Assembly: GCA_002404015.1 (NCBI GenBank) | Contig: DHIW01000034.1 | Span: forward strand, 1 to 25,192 | Source: Chloroflexi bacterium UBA4736 | GTDB lineage: Bacteria; Chloroflexota; Dormibacteria; Dormibacterales; Dormibacteraceae | Length of the DNA: 25,192 nt | Reading direction: 5' to 3' | Shown: one piece after another, positions 4,415 through 11,323 of the stretch | How the letters are laid out: every line of letters starts with the position of its first letter | Position numbering within the stretch: position 1 is the first letter of the stretch | Notes under the pieces: model-generated | Databases searched by the model: none | Seen by the model: the letters and a program-made list of their open reading frames with translations, nothing else | What the model was told of the DNA's origin: nothing | Translations under genes and position numbers: made by a program

Positions 4415-4804
4415 TCAGCGAATCGTGAGCTGGGGTTGGAAGAGAGCGCCCAGAAGGAGGCGCGCGGTCATCGGGCTGGTGGCCAGCGGCACGCCGTACA
4501 AGTTGCACGCCGCCAGCAGGGCGCGGGCCTCAGGTTCGCGGGGATGCCGGTCCAGCAGATCGACAAGGAAGATCACGGCGTCCACCTCTCCCATGACGAC
4601 CCGGGCCCCAACCTGGGCGTAGGCCCCGGTGGGCCCCGACCTCACGCACTCGATCCGCATCCCGGTCTCGGCGATCAAGAGGCGCCCCGTCGTCTCCGTC
4701 GCCAGCAGCGAGCAGCGGCGCAGCAAATCGGTGTGGCGGAGGGCGAACGCGAGAATCTCAGGGTTCTTGCCCTCGTGCGCGATGAGGGCCAGGCAGGGTT
4801 CCAT
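4415..4804 (-). CDS. Methylglyoxal synthase-like protein, 129 aa, catalytic residues altered
   Basis: The whole protein aligns without gaps to methylglyoxal synthase (MgsA), which converts dihydroxyacetone phosphate to methylglyoxal and phosphate. Kept are ALIAHE (His19 of E. coli), the phosphate-loop-like ATETTG, SGPTG, the Asp of IFLVDLL (E. coli Asp91) and PLATSPMTA. Changed, by my alignment from memory, are the catalytic base Asp71 (GGDQQVG becomes GAYAQVG, Tyr), His98 to Arg, Asp101 to Glu (PHDPD becomes PREPE), Lys23 to Asn and Gly46 to Glu. It may therefore bind a phosphorylated ligand without MgsA activity. ATG 4804 follows a -10 box TAGGCT (4818-4813) by eight bases, with a phased CTTAACC array upstream (4856-4824). 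It is divergent from phoR and convergent with the sigma gene. Confidence 0.82.
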   Translation of the reverse strand: MEPCLALIAHEGKNPEILAFALRHTDLLRRCSLLATETTGRLLIAETGMRIECVRSGPTGAYAQVGARVVMGEVDAVIFLVDLLDRHPREPEARALLAACNLYGVPLATSPMTARLLLGALFQPQLTIR

Positions 4805-4812
4805 CCCGGCTC

Positions 4813-4856
4813 AGCCTAGGGAAGCCCGGTTAAGGCCCCAGGTCTGCCCGGTTAAG
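4813..4856 (-). promoter_or_regulatory. Putative Pho box and leaderless promoter of the methylglyoxal synthase-like gene
   Basis: Read on the minus strand: CTTAACCGGGC (4856-4846), an 11-base unit AGACCTGGGGC (4845-4835), CTTAACCGGGC again (4834-4824), five bases, the -10 box TAGGCT (4818-4813), eight bases, then ATG 4804. Eleven-base phasing next to a -10 box with no -35 box is the layout of PhoB-activated promoters. The same layout precedes pstB. Confidence 0.7.
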
Positions 4857-4902
4857 AATCAGAAGCGGGGCCGGCGCCCGCGGCTGGCCGAGCCCGCCAA
4901 CC

Positions 4903-4908
4903 TATACT
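4903..4908 (+). promoter_or_regulatory. -10 box of phoR
   Basis: TATACT ends six bases before GTG 4915, which places the transcription start at or next to the start codon. No -35 box is clear. The CTTAACC repeats lie 46 bases or more upstream and point the other way. Confidence 0.55.
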
Positions 4909-4914
4909 CGCGCC

Positions 4915-5937
4915 GTGATCTGGGCGCGCTGGCGCCAGCTGAAGGCTCCCGACCAGGAGCCGCGGCGGGACCTGCCTTTCGAGGACCTCATCGAAGAGGC
5001 GCCCATCATGGCGATGCTTCTCGACCGCGATCTGCGCGTGCTGGCGGCCAACGCCCTGGCCCGCGACTTCTTCGCGATCGATCCCGCCCGGCTGCCGGCA
5101 CCTCTCGTCGAGGCGACCCGGGAGGCCAACCTCGACACCGTGCTCAGGGTCGGCCGGCCGGAGGCCGAGATCCGCCTCGCGCACCGCCAGCGCACCGTCC
5201 GGACCCGGACGGTTCCAGGCCCCACGACCGGCTCGACTCTGCTGTTCCTCTCCGACGTGACGGGCCTTCGGCGGCTGGAAACCGTGCGCCAGGAGTTCGT
5301 CTCCAACCTCTCTCACGAGCTGAAGACGCCGATCACGTCGCTCCGGCTGGCTGTCGAGAGCCTCCAGGGCGACGCGCCGGCCGAGGCACGGAAGAAGTTC
5401 GCGAGGCGCGCCCTCCGGGAGGTGGACCACGTCGACGCGATCATCGACAACCTCAGGGAGCTGGCTGAGATCGAGGCCGGCGGCTCGCTCCTCTCGCGCT
5501 CGACCTTCGAGGTGGCCGGCCTGGTCGCCGAGGTGGCGGCGCGGCTCCACCTGGGCGACCGCCTCCTGGTGACAGTCCCGGATGGGCTCACGGTCACTGC
5601 CGACCGGGCCAAGCTGGCGCAGGCGCTCGGCAACCTCCTGGACAATGCCGACAAGTTCGCCCCGGCGGGCACCCTGATCGAGACCTCGGCGGAGGTCGCC
5701 GGGGGAGAGCTCCTGCTGCGCGTCCGCGACCACGGCCTCGGCATCTCGCCGGAGCACTGGGACCGCGTGTTCGAGCGCTTCTACAAGGTCGACCAAGCCC
5801 GCTCCCGCGACGTTCCCGGCACCGGGCTGGGCCTGGCCATCACGAAGCATCTCGCCCTGGCCCAGAACGGCCGGGTCTGGACCGAGGCCGCCCCCACCGG
5901 CGGCCAGGTTTTCGCGATCGCCATACCCATCTCTTAA
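4915..5937 (+). CDS. phoR: PhoR-type sensor histidine kinase without membrane segments
   Basis: A two-component kinase of the PhoR type, 340 aa, expected to phosphorylate PhoB when phosphate is scarce. A PAS-like domain covers about residues 23-115 (IMAMLLDRDLRVLAANALA, ending in SDVTGLRRLE). The HisKA domain has SHELKTP with His134. The ATPase domain has the N box NLLDNADKF (Asn240, Asn244), the G1 box DHGLGIS and the G2 box GTGLGLAITKHL. There is no hydrophobic segment, so the protein is cytoplasmic and must get its signal through Pst/PhoU, unlike the membrane-bound E. coli PhoR. GTG 4915 is chosen because TATACT at 4903-4908 makes a leaderless mRNA likely. The stop codon lies inside the Pho box of pstB. 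Confidence 0.9.
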   Translation: MIWARWRQLKAPDQEPRRDLPFEDLIEEAPIMAMLLDRDLRVLAANALARDFFAIDPARLPAPLVEATREANLDTVLRVGRPEAEIRLAHRQRTVRTRTVPGPTTGSTLLFLSDVTGLRRLETVRQEFVSNLSHELKTPITSLRLAVESLQGDAPAEARKKFARRALREVDHVDAIIDNLRELAEIEAGGSLLSRSTFEVAGLVAEVAARLHLGDRLLVTVPDGLTVTADRAKLAQALGNLLDNADKFAPAGTLIETSAEVAGGELLLRVRDHGLGISPEHWDRVFERFYKVDQARSRDVPGTGLGLAITKHLALAQNGRVWTEAAPTGGQVFAIAIPIS

Positions 5938-5977
5938 CCGGCCCATAAAGAGCGTTTAACCACTTGCGACCTAGGGT
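5933..5977 (+). promoter_or_regulatory. Putative Pho box and leaderless promoter of pstB-phoU-phoB-pstC-pstA
   Basis: Three consecutive 11-base units: CTTAACCGGCC (5933-5943), CATAAAGAGCG (5944-5954), TTTAACCACTT (5955-5965). After six bases comes the -10 box TAGGGT (5972-5977), then TTG 5984 six bases later. There is no -35 box at the usual place; a bound activator would replace it. The first unit overlaps the phoR stop codon. The layout matches that before the methylglyoxal synthase-like gene. Confidence 0.75.
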
Positions 5978-5983
5978 GAGCAG

Positions 5984-6832
5984 TTGGTGGAACAGGCACA
6001 GCGGGGACCGCGGGAACCGGTCGCTCGGGTGACGCCGGCTGCGCTGAGAACTCTCGAGGGGGCAGCCCGCACCAAGATCTCGATCGAAGGCCTCTCCTTC
6101 TGGTATGGCAAGGCGCGGGCCCTTAAGGACATCACGCTGGAGATCCCGGAACGTCGCATCACGGCGCTGATCGGACCATCCGGCTGCGGCAAGAGCACGC
6201 TTCTGAGAGTGCTCAACCGGATGTACGACCTGGTGCCCGCCGCCCGGGCTGAGGGCCGGGTGATGCTCGAAGGCGAGGACGTGGTGGAGACCGACCGGCT
6301 GCTCCAGCTCCGCCAGCGGGTGGGCATGGTCTTCCAACGGCCGAGCCCATTCCCGATGTCGATCCGCGACAACATCAGCTTCGCCCCCCGGTTGCTGGGC
6401 TACAAGCGGTCGCGCATCGAGGAGGTCGTCGAGCGCAGCCTGCGCGACGCCGCCCTCTGGGATGAGGTCTCGGACCGGCTCAACAGTCCCGCGACCGCCC
6501 TGTCGGGCGGACAGCAGCAGCGCCTCTCGATCGCCCGCTGCCTGGCCGTCGACCCGGAGGTGATCCTGATGGACGAGCCCTGCTCCGCCCTCGACCCCAT
6601 CGCAACACTCAAGATCGAGGACCTCATGGGCCGCCTGGCCGAGCGCTACACGATCGTGATCGTGACCCACAACATGCAGCAGGCGGCCCGGGTGGCCGAC
6701 CTCACCGCCTTCATGCTCATGAGCCCCGACGAGCGGAGCGGTGAGTTGGTTGAGGTGGCGCCCACCGTGGAGCTGTTCAACCGGCCGAAGGACCGCCGGA
6801 CCGAGGACTACATCACGGGGCGGTTTGGCTAG
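5984..6832 (+). CDS. pstB: Phosphate ABC transporter ATP-binding protein PstB
   Basis: The ATPase that drives phosphate import through PstC/PstA; 282 aa, slightly longer than the usual 250-270 because of an N-terminal extension of about 30 residues. Walker A is GPSGCGKST (64-72), the Q-loop Gln118 lies in [10 protein letters not shown], the signature is LSGGQQQR (173-180), Walker B is VILMDEP (193-199) and the H-loop is VTHNM (His229). [10 protein letters not shown] and the PCSALDPI stretch are typical of PstB. The start is TTG 5984, six bases after TAGGGT; GTG 5987 directly follows and is equally possible. No Shine-Dalgarno site is present. It overlaps phoU by eight bases. Confidence 0.95.
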
Positions 6833-7484
6833 AGCGGCCTTCGATCGTGAGCTGGAGACGCTCCGCGAGCAGCTCCTGCGAATGGCCGGCCTGGTCGAAT
6901 CTCAGATTGACCAGGCGCTGCAGGCGCTTCGCACGTTCGATCGCGAGCTCGCCGACCAGGTCCGCGGCAACGACCAGCTGCTGAACGAGATGTTCCGGGA
7001 GATCCGCGAGCGCTGCTTCGCGATCATCTCCACCCAGCAACCGGTGGCGCGCGACCTGCGCACGCTGATGGGCGTCCAGTACATCGCCGCCGAGCTGGAG
7101 AGGATCGGCGACTACACGGTGCGGGTGGCTCGTTTCACGACCACCCTGGCAGGGCTCCCGCGCACGCCGCTGCGGGCGGAGTTCGGCCTGATGGGCGAGC
7201 TGGCGCGGCAGCAGGTCTGCGACATCCTCGACGCGCTGATCGAGCACGACCAGGAGCGTGCCCGCGAGATCGCGGCCAAGGACGACGAGATCGACCGGCT
7301 CTACCACCGGGTCTACGACGATCTGCTCCAGGAGATCGGGAGCGGCGTCGACTCGGACACCGCCCTGCGCTCGGTCACGCTGATGCTCGTCGCCCACAAC
7401 CTCGAACGGATCGCCGACCGCGTCACCAACGTGGCTGAGGACATCGTCTTCCTGGAGACCGGCCAGGTGGTCGAGCTCGGTTGA
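6825..7484 (+). CDS. phoU: Phosphate signalling regulator PhoU
   Basis: PhoU links the Pst transporter to PhoR and holds the Pho regulon off when phosphate is plentiful; cytoplasmic, membrane-associated and all-helical. The 219-aa protein shows the two three-helix repeats: first [20 protein letters not shown] to [16 protein letters not shown] (about residues 5-105), then [21 protein letters not shown] to [21 protein letters not shown]. The paired metal-binding signatures ELERIGDY and [11 protein letters not shown] are both intact. TTG 6825 is the only good start codon in this frame near the conserved N-terminus and overlaps the end of pstB, which implies translational coupling. Confidence 0.93.
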
Positions 7485-7491
7485 CCCGGGC

Positions 7492-8177
<686 letters not shown>

Positions 8178-8181
<4 letters not shown>

Positions 8182-9122
8182 TCGGCCGGCTGTCGCTGGC
8201 CTGGGGTGGCGCCCGAAGCCGCCGGCGCGACCGCTTCGGAACGGGCACGGCCATCGCGGCCGGCATCGCGCCGCTGCTCGTCGTGCTGATCGTCGTCGTG
8301 ATCGCGCAGCAGGCGGCGCCCGCGATCCAGCACTACGGCTGGGCGTTCCTGGTGCATACGGCCTGGAACCCGGTCACGCTGGACTTCGGCGCCCTCCCGT
8401 TCATCTACGGCACGCTCGCCACCAGTTTCATCGCCCTGCTGATCGCGCTCCCGATCGGGGTGGGCGTCGCCGTCTTCCTGGCCGAGCCCAGTGCCGCCCG
8501 GCTGCGGAGCGCGATCGGCATCGGCGTCGAACTGCTGGCCGCCATCCCCAGCGTGGTCTACGGAATCTGGGGCCTCTACGTGCTGGCGCCCTGGCTGCTG
8601 ACCCATGTCGACCGACCCGTCAGCGCGCGCTTCGGCAACCTCGGGATCTTCGAGGGCCCCGCTCGCCAGACCAGCCTCTTCACTGCCGGGATCGTGCTGG
8701 CCGTGATGATCCTGCCGACGCTGGCGGCCGTGTCACGCGAGGTGATCCGAGCGGTGCCTGGAGGCCTCCGCGAGTCCGGGGTCGCGCTGGGCGCCACCTG
8801 GTGGGAGACGACCTGGAGGCTCGTGCTGCGCGCCGCCCGGCCCGGCATATTCGGGGCCACCGTCCTGGCATTCGGCCGCGCCCTCGGCGAGACCGTCGCG
8901 GTGACCATGGTGATCGGCAACCGGCCTGAGATCCGGGCCGCGATCTTCGCGCCCGGCTACACCCTGGCGAGCGTGATCGCGAACGAGTTCACCGAGGCGA
9001 CCGGGCAGCTCTACCCGGCGGCCCTGCTCGAGCTGGGATTGGTCCTGATGCTCGTAACCCTGATCGTCAACCTGGGGGCACTCCTGATGGTGCGGCTCGT
9101 GGGCAAGGAGGTCCCAGCGTGA
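8178..9122 (+). CDS. pstC: Phosphate ABC transporter permease PstC
   Basis: An inner-membrane permease of 314 aa with six predicted membrane helices: near 27-50 (APLLVVLIVVVIAQQ), and then four to five from about 77 to 300. The first large loop follows helix 1, as in PstC. The cytoplasmic ABC-contact (EAA) loop reads VPGGLRESGVALGATWWETTWRLVL, and the ALGETVAVTMVIGN segment after it is characteristic. GTG 8178 overlaps the phoB stop by four bases and AGGAGGGG directly precedes it. It would form the channel with PstA. Confidence 0.95.
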
Positions 9123-9970
9123 GCCGCGACCAGCGGCGGCGGTTCGCTGACCGATTCGCGAGGCTGGCCGTCTGGGTGGCCGCCGCGCTGGCGCTGGTGC
9201 CGCTCTCGCTGGTGCTCGCCTACACGGTTCGCAACGGGCTCCCGGCGGCCGCCCACCTCGACTTCTTCATTCACACCGAGCGTCCGGTCGGGATCCCCGG
9301 CGGGGGCGTCGAGCACGCCATCGTGGGCACCCTGATCATCGTCGGGGTGGCCTCGCTGCTCGCCATCCCGATCGGGGTGGTCGCCGGAATCTATCTCGCC
9401 GAGTACGGCCTCGGCCGCTGGGGCGACACGGTTCGGCTGGCCAGCGACGTGCTGGTGGCGGCCCCTTCGATCGCGATCGGGCTGTTCGCGTATGCGCTGC
9501 TGGTCGCGCCCTTCCGCCACTTCTCGGCCCTGTCGGCTTCGGTGGCGCTGGCGGTCCTGATGGTGCCGGTCGTGATCCGGACCACGGAGGCCGCGGTGGC
9601 GCTGGTGCCGGGCGGGCTTCGCGAGGCCGGTCTGGCGCTCGGGCTCGCACGCTGGCGGGTATCGCTGCAGCTGATCCTGCCCGCGGCGGCGCCCGGTGTC
9701 GTCACCGGCGCGCTCCTGGCCGTTGCACGGGCCGCCGGCGAGACGGCGCCCTTGCTGTTCACCGGGTTTGGAAACCGCGCCCTCGCGCTCGACCCCACGC
9801 AGCCGATGGCGGCCCTGCCCCTGATCGTGTTCCACGACGCCCTGACGCCGTACCAGGAGCTCCAGGACACGGCCTGGGGGGCGGCCCTGGTCTTGATCGC
9901 CATCGTGCTGGTCGTCAATCTGGGCAGCCGCCTGGCGCTCCGCCGCCAGCTGGCGATGGCCAGAACCTAA
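9119..9970 (+). CDS. pstA: Phosphate ABC transporter permease PstA
   Basis: The second permease, 283 aa, with about six membrane helices (first at about 19-40, last near 255-275). The EAA loop is VPGGLREAGLALGLARWRVSLQLILP, followed by AAGETAPLLFTG, the usual PstA signature. GTG 9119 overlaps the pstC stop by four bases, with AAGGAGG just upstream. No pstS gene follows; the next gene is a murein peptidase with its own promoter. The phosphate-binding protein must be encoded elsewhere. Confidence 0.95.
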   Translation: MSRDQRRRFADRFARLAVWVAAALALVPLSLVLAYTVRNGLPAAAHLDFFIHTERPVGIPGGGVEHAIVGTLIIVGVASLLAIPIGVVAGIYLAEYGLGRWGDTVRLASDVLVAAPSIAIGLFAYALLVAPFRHFSALSASVALAVLMVPVVIRTTEAAVALVPGGLREAGLALGLARWRVSLQLILPAAAPGVVTGALLAVARAAGETAPLLFTGFGNRALALDPTQPMAALPLIVFHDALTPYQELQDTAWGAALVLIAIVLVVNLGSRLALRRQLAMART

Positions 9971-10102
9971 GAGCCAACCGCGTTGCTCACCGCAACATTC
10001 AGGCCGGAAGCCTCTGACCTGACGCCCGAATGACGGCAAGGCTCAACATCCCTTAACCACCGCGGCCTTGATCGGGCCGGAGCGCTACCTAGCTTCCAAT
10101 TC
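9971..10102 (+). promoter_or_regulatory. Intergenic region with promoter, and possible weak Pho box, of the M23 peptidase gene
   Basis: A CTTAACC unit at 10052-10058 sits in exactly the same register as the first unit of the other two arrays: 11+11+11+5 bases before a -10 box TAGCTT (10090-10095), with GTG 10103 seven bases later. The third unit (10074-10084), however, does not match CTTAACC. TTGATC at 10068-10073 is 16 bases from the -10 box and could be an ordinary -35 box. A weak 5-bp hairpin lies at 9982-9996 after pstA. Confidence 0.45.
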
Positions 10103-11323
10103 GTGGGGAAGTTGGGCCTGCTGGTCTTCATCACAGCGATGTTGATCGGCATGGCTACCGTGCCGGTCTCGGCCACCGACTACTCCGGGCTCGCGGCCGC
10201 CCGCATCCGTCAGGCTCAGCTGGCGCAGGTCCGCGCCCAGCTCGGAGCCTCCCTGGCAGCCGGTATAGCCGCCCAGGACCAGCTGACCCAATCCCTGCAC
10301 GACAACCGGGTGGAGGAGGAGCGCCTGACCGCCGCGCAGGCCGACGCGGACGCCAAGATCGCCGCCCTCGACGCCGAGATCACCGCCCTCGACGCGCAGA
10401 TGGCAGATACGCAGACGCGCATCGACCGCGAGCGGCGCCAGGTCGCCATTCTCGCCCGCGCCATGTATATCGAGCCGGAGTCGATCCTCGTCGAGTTGGG
10501 AGCGTCGAGCAACCTCGGCGATTTCGTCACGCGCATGGGCGACCTGAATGCGGCGGGCGCCCGCGCCCGGGGCATCAAGGCGTCGCTGCAGCGTGACGAG
10601 GACAAGCTGAAGGCTGACCGCGAGAAGCAGGCCGCCGACCGCAAGACCCAGGCCGACCTGAGGGCCAAGCTGCTCGTCCAGCTGGCCGGCCTGCAGGCGG
10701 TGGCGGCCCGCCAGCAGGCGGCCCTCGAAAGCCTTTGGGCTCAACAGGCCCAGACCCAGGCGGAGATGTACAGCGCCAGCCGCCAGTCGACGGCCACCGC
10801 GCAGTACATCGCCGACATGCTGCAGGCGCAGCAGAACGAAGTGGCCGCCGCCGCGTCCCAGGCCGTCTGGGACCAGGTCCAGCTGCTGGGCGGCCAAGTG
10901 CCGGCTGCCTCTGGCGACCTGCACTTCACCAACCCGCTGCCGGGCGGCGTGACGACCCAGGGCTTCGGGCCCAGCCCCTATGCGTTCGAGCCGCCCTACG
11001 GTGGGTACGCCCACTTCCACACTGGGTTGGACCTGTCCACCCCGGCCGGAGTGCCTGTGCTGGCGGCCGGCGACGGGGTCGTCCTGCTCGCGGGCTTCAA
11101 CAACGGCGGCTACGGCAACTACGTCGTCATCGGGCACGCGGCCGGCATCGACACGCTGTACGGCCACCTCATGCAGATCCTGGTGAAGCAGGGCCAGCAC
11201 GTGGCTAAGGGCCAGCCGATCGGCCTCGAGGGCTCGACCGGGAACTCGACGGGCCCCCACCTCCACTTCGAGGTACGCCAGGGCGGCCGCCCCGTGAACC
11301 CGCTGCCCTTCCTGACGGGCTAG
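10103..11323 (+). CDS. Secreted murein hydrolase/activator: coiled coil plus M23 peptidase domain
   Basis: A 406-aa exported cell-wall protein of EnvC/NlpD-like design. A signal peptide or N-terminal anchor covers residues 1-25 (GLLVFITAMLIGMATVPVSA, likely cut after Ala). Residues about 30-250 are Ala, Gln, Asp and Glu-rich coiled coil. The M23 (LytM) domain is 285-405 with all zinc and catalytic residues: His306 and Asp310 in HTGLDLS, then YGHL, then HLH with His386 and His388. It therefore looks able to cleave peptidoglycan cross-links, unlike activators that lack these residues. GTG 10103 follows TAGCTT by seven bases (leaderless). Its stop shares CTAG with the opposite gene. Confidence 0.92.
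   Translation: MGKLGLLVFITAMLIGMATVPVSATDYSGLAAARIRQAQLAQVRAQLGASLAAGIAAQDQLTQSLHDNRVEEERLTAAQADADAKIAALDAEITALDAQMADTQTRIDRERRQVAILARAMYIEPESILVELGASSNLGDFVTRMGDLNAAGARARGIKASLQRDEDKLKADREKQAADRKTQADLRAKLLVQLAGLQAVAARQQAALESLWAQQAQTQAEMYSASRQSTATAQYIADMLQAQQNEVAAAASQAVWDQVQLLGGQVPAASGDLHFTNPLPGGVTTQGFGPSPYAFEPPYGGYAHFHTGLDLSTPAGVPVLAAGDGVVLLAGFNNGGYGNYVVIGHAAGIDTLYGHLMQILVKQGQHVAKGQPIGLEGSTGNSTGPHLHFEVRQGGRPVNPLPFLTG

Follow-up and report, generated by a model that had tools for sequence, protein, structure and literature searches.

The CTTAACC repeats that flank the kinase gene at the phosphate locus of this Chloroflexota genome are very probably the DNA site by which these bacteria switch on phosphate uptake. 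The window (the whole stretch of 25,192 nucleotides analysed here) carries an mgsA-like gene on the minus strand, followed on the plus strand by phoR, pstB, phoU, phoB, pstC and pstA (Table 1); we establish below the sequences, phase and position of the repeats, their conservation across genomes and the gene neighbourhood in which they recur. The window contains neither pstS nor a DUF47 gene: a tblastn search of it with a relative's PstS and DUF47 proteins returned nothing better than E = 1.2.

Table 1. Genes and promoter elements at the phosphate locus of the window
Feature	Position	Strand	Basis
mgsA-like gene, 129 aa	4415..4804	-	PF02142 and NF003559 over cut-off, TIGR00160 under
-10 box TAGGCT	4813..4818	-	9 bases past last unit
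Candidate Pho-box array of mgsA-like gene	4824..4856	-	CTTAACC-N4-AGACCTG-N4-CTTAACC-N4; middle unit degenerate; relatives have the pstS array there
TATACT, leaderless-type -10 of phoR	4903..4908	+	exact in 18 of 23 relatives
PhoR-like histidine kinase, 340 aa	4915..5937	+	HisKA and HATPase_c; best NCBIfam TIGR02966 (phoR), under cut-off; 54-63% identity, 23 relatives
Candidate Pho-box array of pstB	5933..5965	+	CTTAACC-N4-CATAAAG-N4-TTTAACC-N4; best window match of relatives-only matrix; same placement in relatives
-10 box TAGGGT	5972..5977	+	10 bases past last CTTAACC-type unit; TANNNT-type boxes at similar spacing in relatives
pstB	5984..6832	+	TIGR00972 over cut-off
phoU (start uncertain)	6834..7484	+	TIGR02135 over cut-off
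phoB-like OmpR-family response regulator, presumed array binder	7492..8181	+	Response_reg and Trans_reg_C; TIGR02154 216 bits, under cut-off
pstC	8178..9122	+	TIGR02138 over cut-off
pstA	9119..9970	+	TIGR00974 over cut-off

The first-pass annotation had described CTTAACC arrays with -10 boxes on both strands, and direct reading bears this out. The minus strand reads CTTAACCGGGC (4856-4846), AGACCTGGGGC (4845-4835) and CTTAACCGGGC again (4834-4824), followed by five bases, TAGGCT (4818-4813), eight bases and an ATG at 4804; the plus strand reads CTTAACCGGCC (5933-5943), CATAAAGAGCG (5944-5954) and TTTAACCACTT (5955-5965), followed by six bases, TAGGGT (5972-5977), six bases and a TTG at 5984. 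Its account of the geometry was equally sound: repeats spaced by 11 bases, the last just upstream of the -10 box, and a start codon no more than eight bases further on (eight on the minus strand, six on the plus). The traits of a Pho box, namely tandem direct repeats, an 11-base period and a last unit lying 9 and 10 bases from the -10 box, can accordingly be read off the window. CTTAACC occurs four times there against 0.39 expected (a roughly ten-fold excess), a count reached by none of 100 dinucleotide shuffles.

We scored these sites with a 29-position matrix from which the window itself was excluded; it was built on those regions of relatives (38 of 45) whose score against a hand-made seed was 24 or higher out of 29. 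The plus-strand site at 5933 reaches 31.9 bits (the relatives' median is 32.3), against a mean of 2.9, standard deviation of 3.0 and maximum of 11.7 for the best match in each of 60 shuffled windows, and hence stands far above chance. Other window registers give 14.2 bits (5922, overlapping 5933), 9.2 bits (4856) and 7.3 bits (10030). The minus-strand site at 4856 lies within the range of the shuffle maxima, its middle unit AGACCTG being the misfit, so that the case for it is built on its position and on the other mgsA promoters described below. The fourth CTTAACC (10052-10058, plus strand), which the first-pass annotation had not listed, sits 31 bases (9 + 22) before a -10-like TAGCTT (10090-10095) that belongs, with a GTG at 10103, to an M23 peptidase gene after pstA; at 7.3 bits its register is too weak alone, yet its phase is compatible with a Pho box.

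Between the two arrays, phoR carries a TATACT of its own, placed six bases upstream of the GTG start, and the five relatives lacking the exact box carry near variants of it. The PhoR-like kinase displays no transmembrane helix by hydropathy (top 19-residue Kyte-Doolittle mean 1.1) and may therefore be cytosolic.

Relatives were reached through a PstB scan of genome contigs, whose best 80 of 591 matches came mostly from distant phyla and provided a Chloroflexota record (L001) as the point of entry. A kinase match at 1e-40 is present in 134 of the 301 genomes of that phylum, and PhoR at 55-62% in only 11 (E <= 6.4e-108; the next at 2.1e-51); within the class of one of these 11 (G083), 23 of 110 genomes hold a phoR orthologue at 1e-70 or better. 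The grouping of the window with these relatives rests on the similarity of PhoR, PstB and PhoB and on gene order rather than on a species tree. In the relatives the genes usually run pstS (divergent), phoR, pstB, phoU, phoB, pstC, pstA: pstS is divergent in 21 of the 23, and phoR is followed by pstB in 20, by a contig end in one and by phoU in two (G040 and G362, where a two-unit array precedes it).

The first-pass annotation had proposed a search for the array at the pst genes of relatives. Once run, this check did not refute the reading: a good three-unit match is present in 38 of the 45 phoR-adjacent spacers of the 23 relatives, as judged with a seed (at least 24 of 29) that had been shaped on such sites. 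The match is absent from seven regions (after phoR in L102, L103 and L105; before it in L103, L105, L106 and L183), and the arrays of G075 (L105) and G115 (L103) are poor on both sides. Arrays downstream of phoR typically read CTTAACS-N4-CATAAA-N5-CTTAACC, followed by 9-10 bases, a box like TATCCT or TAGGGT and a nearby start codon; a typical array on the pstS side is CTTAAGC-N4-GTTAACC-N4-CTTAAAC with CATAACGT or TAGCGT. In five further genomes of the class (G021, G171, G345, G347 and G349) the phoR-pstS spacer contains a pair such as GTTAACC-N4-CTTAACC; 22 bases on comes a third unit, which reads CATAAAG, GATAACG or GATTACG, and after it N9 and either TAGCCT or TAGCAT. Four of these genomes have a DUF47 gene on the far side of phoR, and at a sixth such pst locus (L291) the contig ends before pstS.

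The phase of the repeats is tightly kept. Counting TTAA cores no more than 50 bases apart, every one of the 18 pairs after phoR has a distance of 11 or 22 bases, as do 28 of 32 on the pstS side (one is 14, none 10 or 12), giving 46 of 50 for the pooled spacers and never a distance of 10 or 12. When the exact pattern TTAA-N8-TAA-N7-TTAA was searched across the 110 genomes without regard to genes, it gave 40 rows in 23 genomes, which with six both-strand doubles reduce to 34 sites, 32 of them at pst/pho loci; outside these loci lie G203:C46, whose neighbouring genes have no evident link to phosphate, and G251:C8. The pair YTTAACC-N15-YTTAACC, allowing one mismatch at most, placed 7 of its 11 matches in 11 relatives at the phoR locus. 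That the reversed-pattern controls are not empty (15 rows for the former search, 7 for the latter) would be expected if these were merely chance AT-rich repeats in GC-rich spacers, such as UP elements or terminator remnants; but such repeats would not keep an 11/22 phase and a fixed distance to the -10 box, before the same genes, while their flanks diverge, and on phase, spacing, gene neighbourhood and conservation we rule this explanation out, its probability being close to nil.

Outside the class, 21 loci were inspected (L001, L004 and L112-L130). Plain phased TTAA runs lie near pho/pst genes in L113 (six units), L115, L121, L122 and L129 (the same locus as L339), with weaker runs in L117 and L127; in the remaining 14 the pattern used finds no phased run. 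The box type is thus wider than the class, yet not seen everywhere.

Which protein reads the box is a separate question. The window regulator scores 216 bits against the PhoB model TIGR02154, below its curated cut-off of 296.2, and its best NCBIfam score is to YycF (223 bits, also under cut-off). The TIGR02154 cut-off is missed in G083 and G021 as well, and of 14 control genomes, 10 of which give a signal, just 2 exceed it, for which reason we regard it as narrow. The repeats might instead be bound by another OmpR/PhoB-family regulator (WalR/YycF-, MtrA- or RpaB-like) that controls envelope and phosphate genes together; the lead of YycF over PhoB speaks in its favour, and since two genomes examined encode 13 and 15 regulators matching the PhoB model at 1e-40 or better, another of these could bind. 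The scores of the window's kinase and regulator, below the PhoR and PhoB cut-offs, likewise count against the PhoB reading. We nevertheless judge the rival quite improbable, given that across genomes the sites are concentrated at phoR-pst-phoB loci and in front of DUF47, pstS and mgsA, and that the gene of the PhoB-like regulator sits within the operon itself. The PhoB recognition helix is near-identical across 17 loci and the window.

A promoter pattern blind to genes, exact TTAA-N7-TTAANC-N9/10-TANNNT, gives 30 sites in 29 of the 110 genomes against 2 reversed-control rows. The genes downstream are DUF47/PhoU_div (15), mgsA (7), pstS (6), one solute-binding-protein-like gene (G336) and one that is unclear (G363:C160); the DUF47/PhoU_div call (PF01865) is by Pfam for one gene and by likeness for the rest. 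We take DUF47/PhoU_div to be a Pit accessory gene, likely under Pho control. Its phased promoter occurs in 15 genomes (L249, L250, L258-L265, L270, L273 and L275-L277), and 14 of the 15 share TTAACGAC(G/A)CCTTAA(C/T)C-N10-TANNNT. The G336 contig (C98; L248/L306) bears two phased CTTAAC pairs 296 bases apart, the second before the binding-protein-like gene, which has no Pfam match and is possibly a transporter of a phosphorus compound. In G091 the same CTTAACC-N15-GTTAACC stands on two contigs (L139 on C56, L141 on C153) with slightly different flanks, possibly a duplicate assembly or a repeated gene; the L139 copy precedes what by eye is an acyl-CoA dehydrogenase-like gene.

With two mismatches the YTTAACC pair yields background in four genomes (forward plus reverse rows over reversed control: 34/459, 3/9, 84/79 and 23/11), the last being G004, an uncultured actinobacterium (genome of L041), at twice its control. 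A looser 29-base pattern with three mismatches gives 84 rows in 24 genomes, roughly 40 of those rows lying at phoR loci, and the control gives 67; outside the phoR loci its rows show no surplus over control, and this search, by pattern and not by gene name, established no phoA or ugp member.

Because an mgsA-like gene occupies the place in the window where relatives have pstS, mgsA itself was searched across genomes. A homologue is found in 45 of the 110 genomes of the class of G083. Of the 30 class loci examined, eight show two phased units ahead of mgsA, then N9, TAGACT and, eight bases on, a start codon (seven of the eight were recovered by the gene-blind pattern too), and one further locus (G362) has a degenerate pair. 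G021 and G171 possess both the pst-locus array and the mgsA promoter, and the mgsA genes examined in G345, G347 and G349 have no phased promoter. Across the phylum a canonical MgsA query matches 65 of 301 genomes; the 13 closest to it (L339-L351; 0.9-2.1 Mb) were taken as a second group. Here mgsA lies directly after phoR in nine and close before pstS or pstC in 11, with one or other arrangement in all 13, and in 12 of the 13 it is preceded by between three and five units in phase, some of them relaxed, with N9 and then TATACT, TAAACT, TATTCT or TATCCT. In L348 and L349 the same search finds pstC and not PstS. L346 has the order phoR, mgsA, pstS, pstC, in agreement with our assumption that DET0138 and DET0139 of D. 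mccartyi 195 are pstS and pstC. By their small size, and by the two mgsA genes in three of them, the second-group genomes look like Dehalococcoidia; D. mccartyi carries two mgsA genes (PMC4340931).

The remaining 36 mgsA upstream regions examined all lack an array and, as the class set of nine was chosen once the repeats had been seen, the fair count is 20 of 58 mgsA regions examined. With a phased promoter on canonical mgsA in eight class genomes and 12 of 13 of the second group, MgsA looks like a Pho-regulon gene of the phylum.

The window protein itself departs from this canonical form. It resembles methylglyoxal synthase over nearly its whole length (2.3e-31 to 1wo8; we take 1wo8 and 1b93 to be the Thermus and E. 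coli enzymes) and retains the TTG and SGP stretches, presumably the phosphate pocket, but carries Asp71->Tyr, His98->Arg, Asp20->Glu and Asp101->Glu. In the E. coli numbering, His19, Asp20, Asp71, His98 and Asp101 are the catalytic residues; at residues 19, 20, 71, 98 and 101 the window has H, E, Y, R, E and its nearest relative (P0002, 75%) H, D, Y, R, D. The canonical active-site residues are present in all 30 class homologues examined, and of 78 database proteins, among which the window's own is counted, 73 keep all five, the joint loss of Asp71 and His98 being confined among these 78 to the window protein and P0002. Their loss means that the window MgsA-like protein is probably not an active synthase, and the fact that two diverged copies share it points to a small retained subfamily rather than to decay. 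The first-pass annotation was right that a methylglyoxal synthase-like gene lies in the other direction; it had given the gene too little weight, and the name should probably not be read as an activity.

These features bear on whether the mgsA-side array is just a former pstS promoter, beside which the mgsA-like gene arrived by chance and under which phosphate control would be meaningless. The low score and lost middle unit of the site, the altered active site, and the 36 of 58 mgsA upstream regions (those outside the class nine and the second group) that have no array would all fit such an origin. What weighs against it is that mgsA elsewhere owns a phased promoter, in the eight class genomes (seven found blind to genes) as in 12 of 13 of the second group, and we think this account unlikely, if the most substantial of the alternatives considered.

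Taking the locus as a whole, we have high confidence that the arrays are the Pho boxes of a Chloroflexota lineage, operating as follows. Under phosphate shortage, the presumed signal, PhoR would phosphorylate the PhoB-like regulator of its own operon; this regulator, the likely binder, would occupy the 11-base-phased YTTAACC units head-to-tail; the last unit, ending 9-10 bases before the -10 box, would take the role of a -35 element; and RNA polymerase would be recruited to the nearly leaderless promoters of pstB-phoU-phoB-pstC-pstA on the plus strand and, on the minus strand, of the divergent gene (pstS in relatives, mgsA-like in the window), activating both. The divergent array may act on phoR as well.

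Phosphate inhibits MgsA, and the enzyme's reaction releases phosphate from DHAP (PMC11850910). For E. coli it has been stated that methylglyoxal helps phosphate turnover during starvation and that PhoB brings about an indirect increase in a methylglyoxal reductase (PMC3465305). In D. mccartyi 195, DET0137 (methylglyoxal synthase) falls with DET0138 and DET0139 into one transcript cluster tied to solvent toxicity: cluster members show no expression in most conditions, DET0137 rises 46.8-fold under tetrachloroethene saturation, and phosphate limitation is named only in passing in the available portions of that paper (PMC4340931). A later network analysis gives the DET0137-inhibition link a strength of 0.000, which its authors attribute to the method (PMC5102406). 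One could go further and propose that in Chloroflexota PhoB drives mgsA as a core part of the response to phosphate shortage, starving cells using the enzyme to regain phosphate from DHAP alongside PstS; that in the window's lineage the gene captured the pstS promoter and, with its TTG/SGP stretches retained, lost the catalytic residues to become a phosphate- or triose-phosphate-binding regulator beside PhoR; and that the DET0137 rise is a Pho response; we offer this only as a speculation, and a rather doubtful one. Our literature search found no publication on a Chloroflexota Pho box and, within the open-access literature (most subscription journals lying outside it), no report of transcriptional phosphate control of methylglyoxal synthase. 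The box provides a readable phosphate-starvation signal for a largely uncultured phylum, so that Pho regulons become predictable from metagenomes; it places methylglyoxal synthase under predicted transcriptional phosphate control; and it permits a testable reinterpretation of DET0137, a published stress biomarker, together with DET0138/0139 (PMC4340931).

Among known systems, the E. coli PhoB box has the same architecture of 11-base head-to-tail units about 10 bases upstream of the -10 box (PMC1906773, PMC4415409), but its unit is CTGTCAT, whereas those of the window are CTTAACC, CATAAAG and TTTAACC; the Streptomyces PhoP box is again of direct repeats and the same general build, but with the unit GTTCACC (PMC4415409). 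The first-pass annotation had held the array to be unlike the E. coli and actinobacterial boxes, and neither consensus, as given in the accessible text of PMC4415409, matches it. Its reading of a candidate Pho box in this lineage is likewise supported, except that the type of box is already known, the core being that of the cyanobacterial SphR box. The latter is a CTTAACCT unit of 8 + 3 bases with an 11-base period (PMC1906773), whose TTAA core was demonstrated by EMSA (PMC11126600). The SphR/PhoB box of Synechocystis PCC 6803 and the arrays described here share the CTTAACC(T) unit, the 11-base period, the run of at least three units and the position before pst genes. In the window the TTAACC core is kept but the eighth base is not T, and against at least three copies of CTTAACCT site 5933 has three units, the middle one CATAAAG, and site 4856 two clear units. 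The Chloroflexota case differs further in its host, in its GC-rich linkers (in the window's class), in a middle unit that is often CATAAA, in its near-leaderless promoters and in having mgsA and DUF47 among its targets. As unit and period are those of the SphR box save for the eighth base, we class the Chloroflexota arrays as an instance of that element in a new phylum, its regulon altered to take in mgsA and DUF47.
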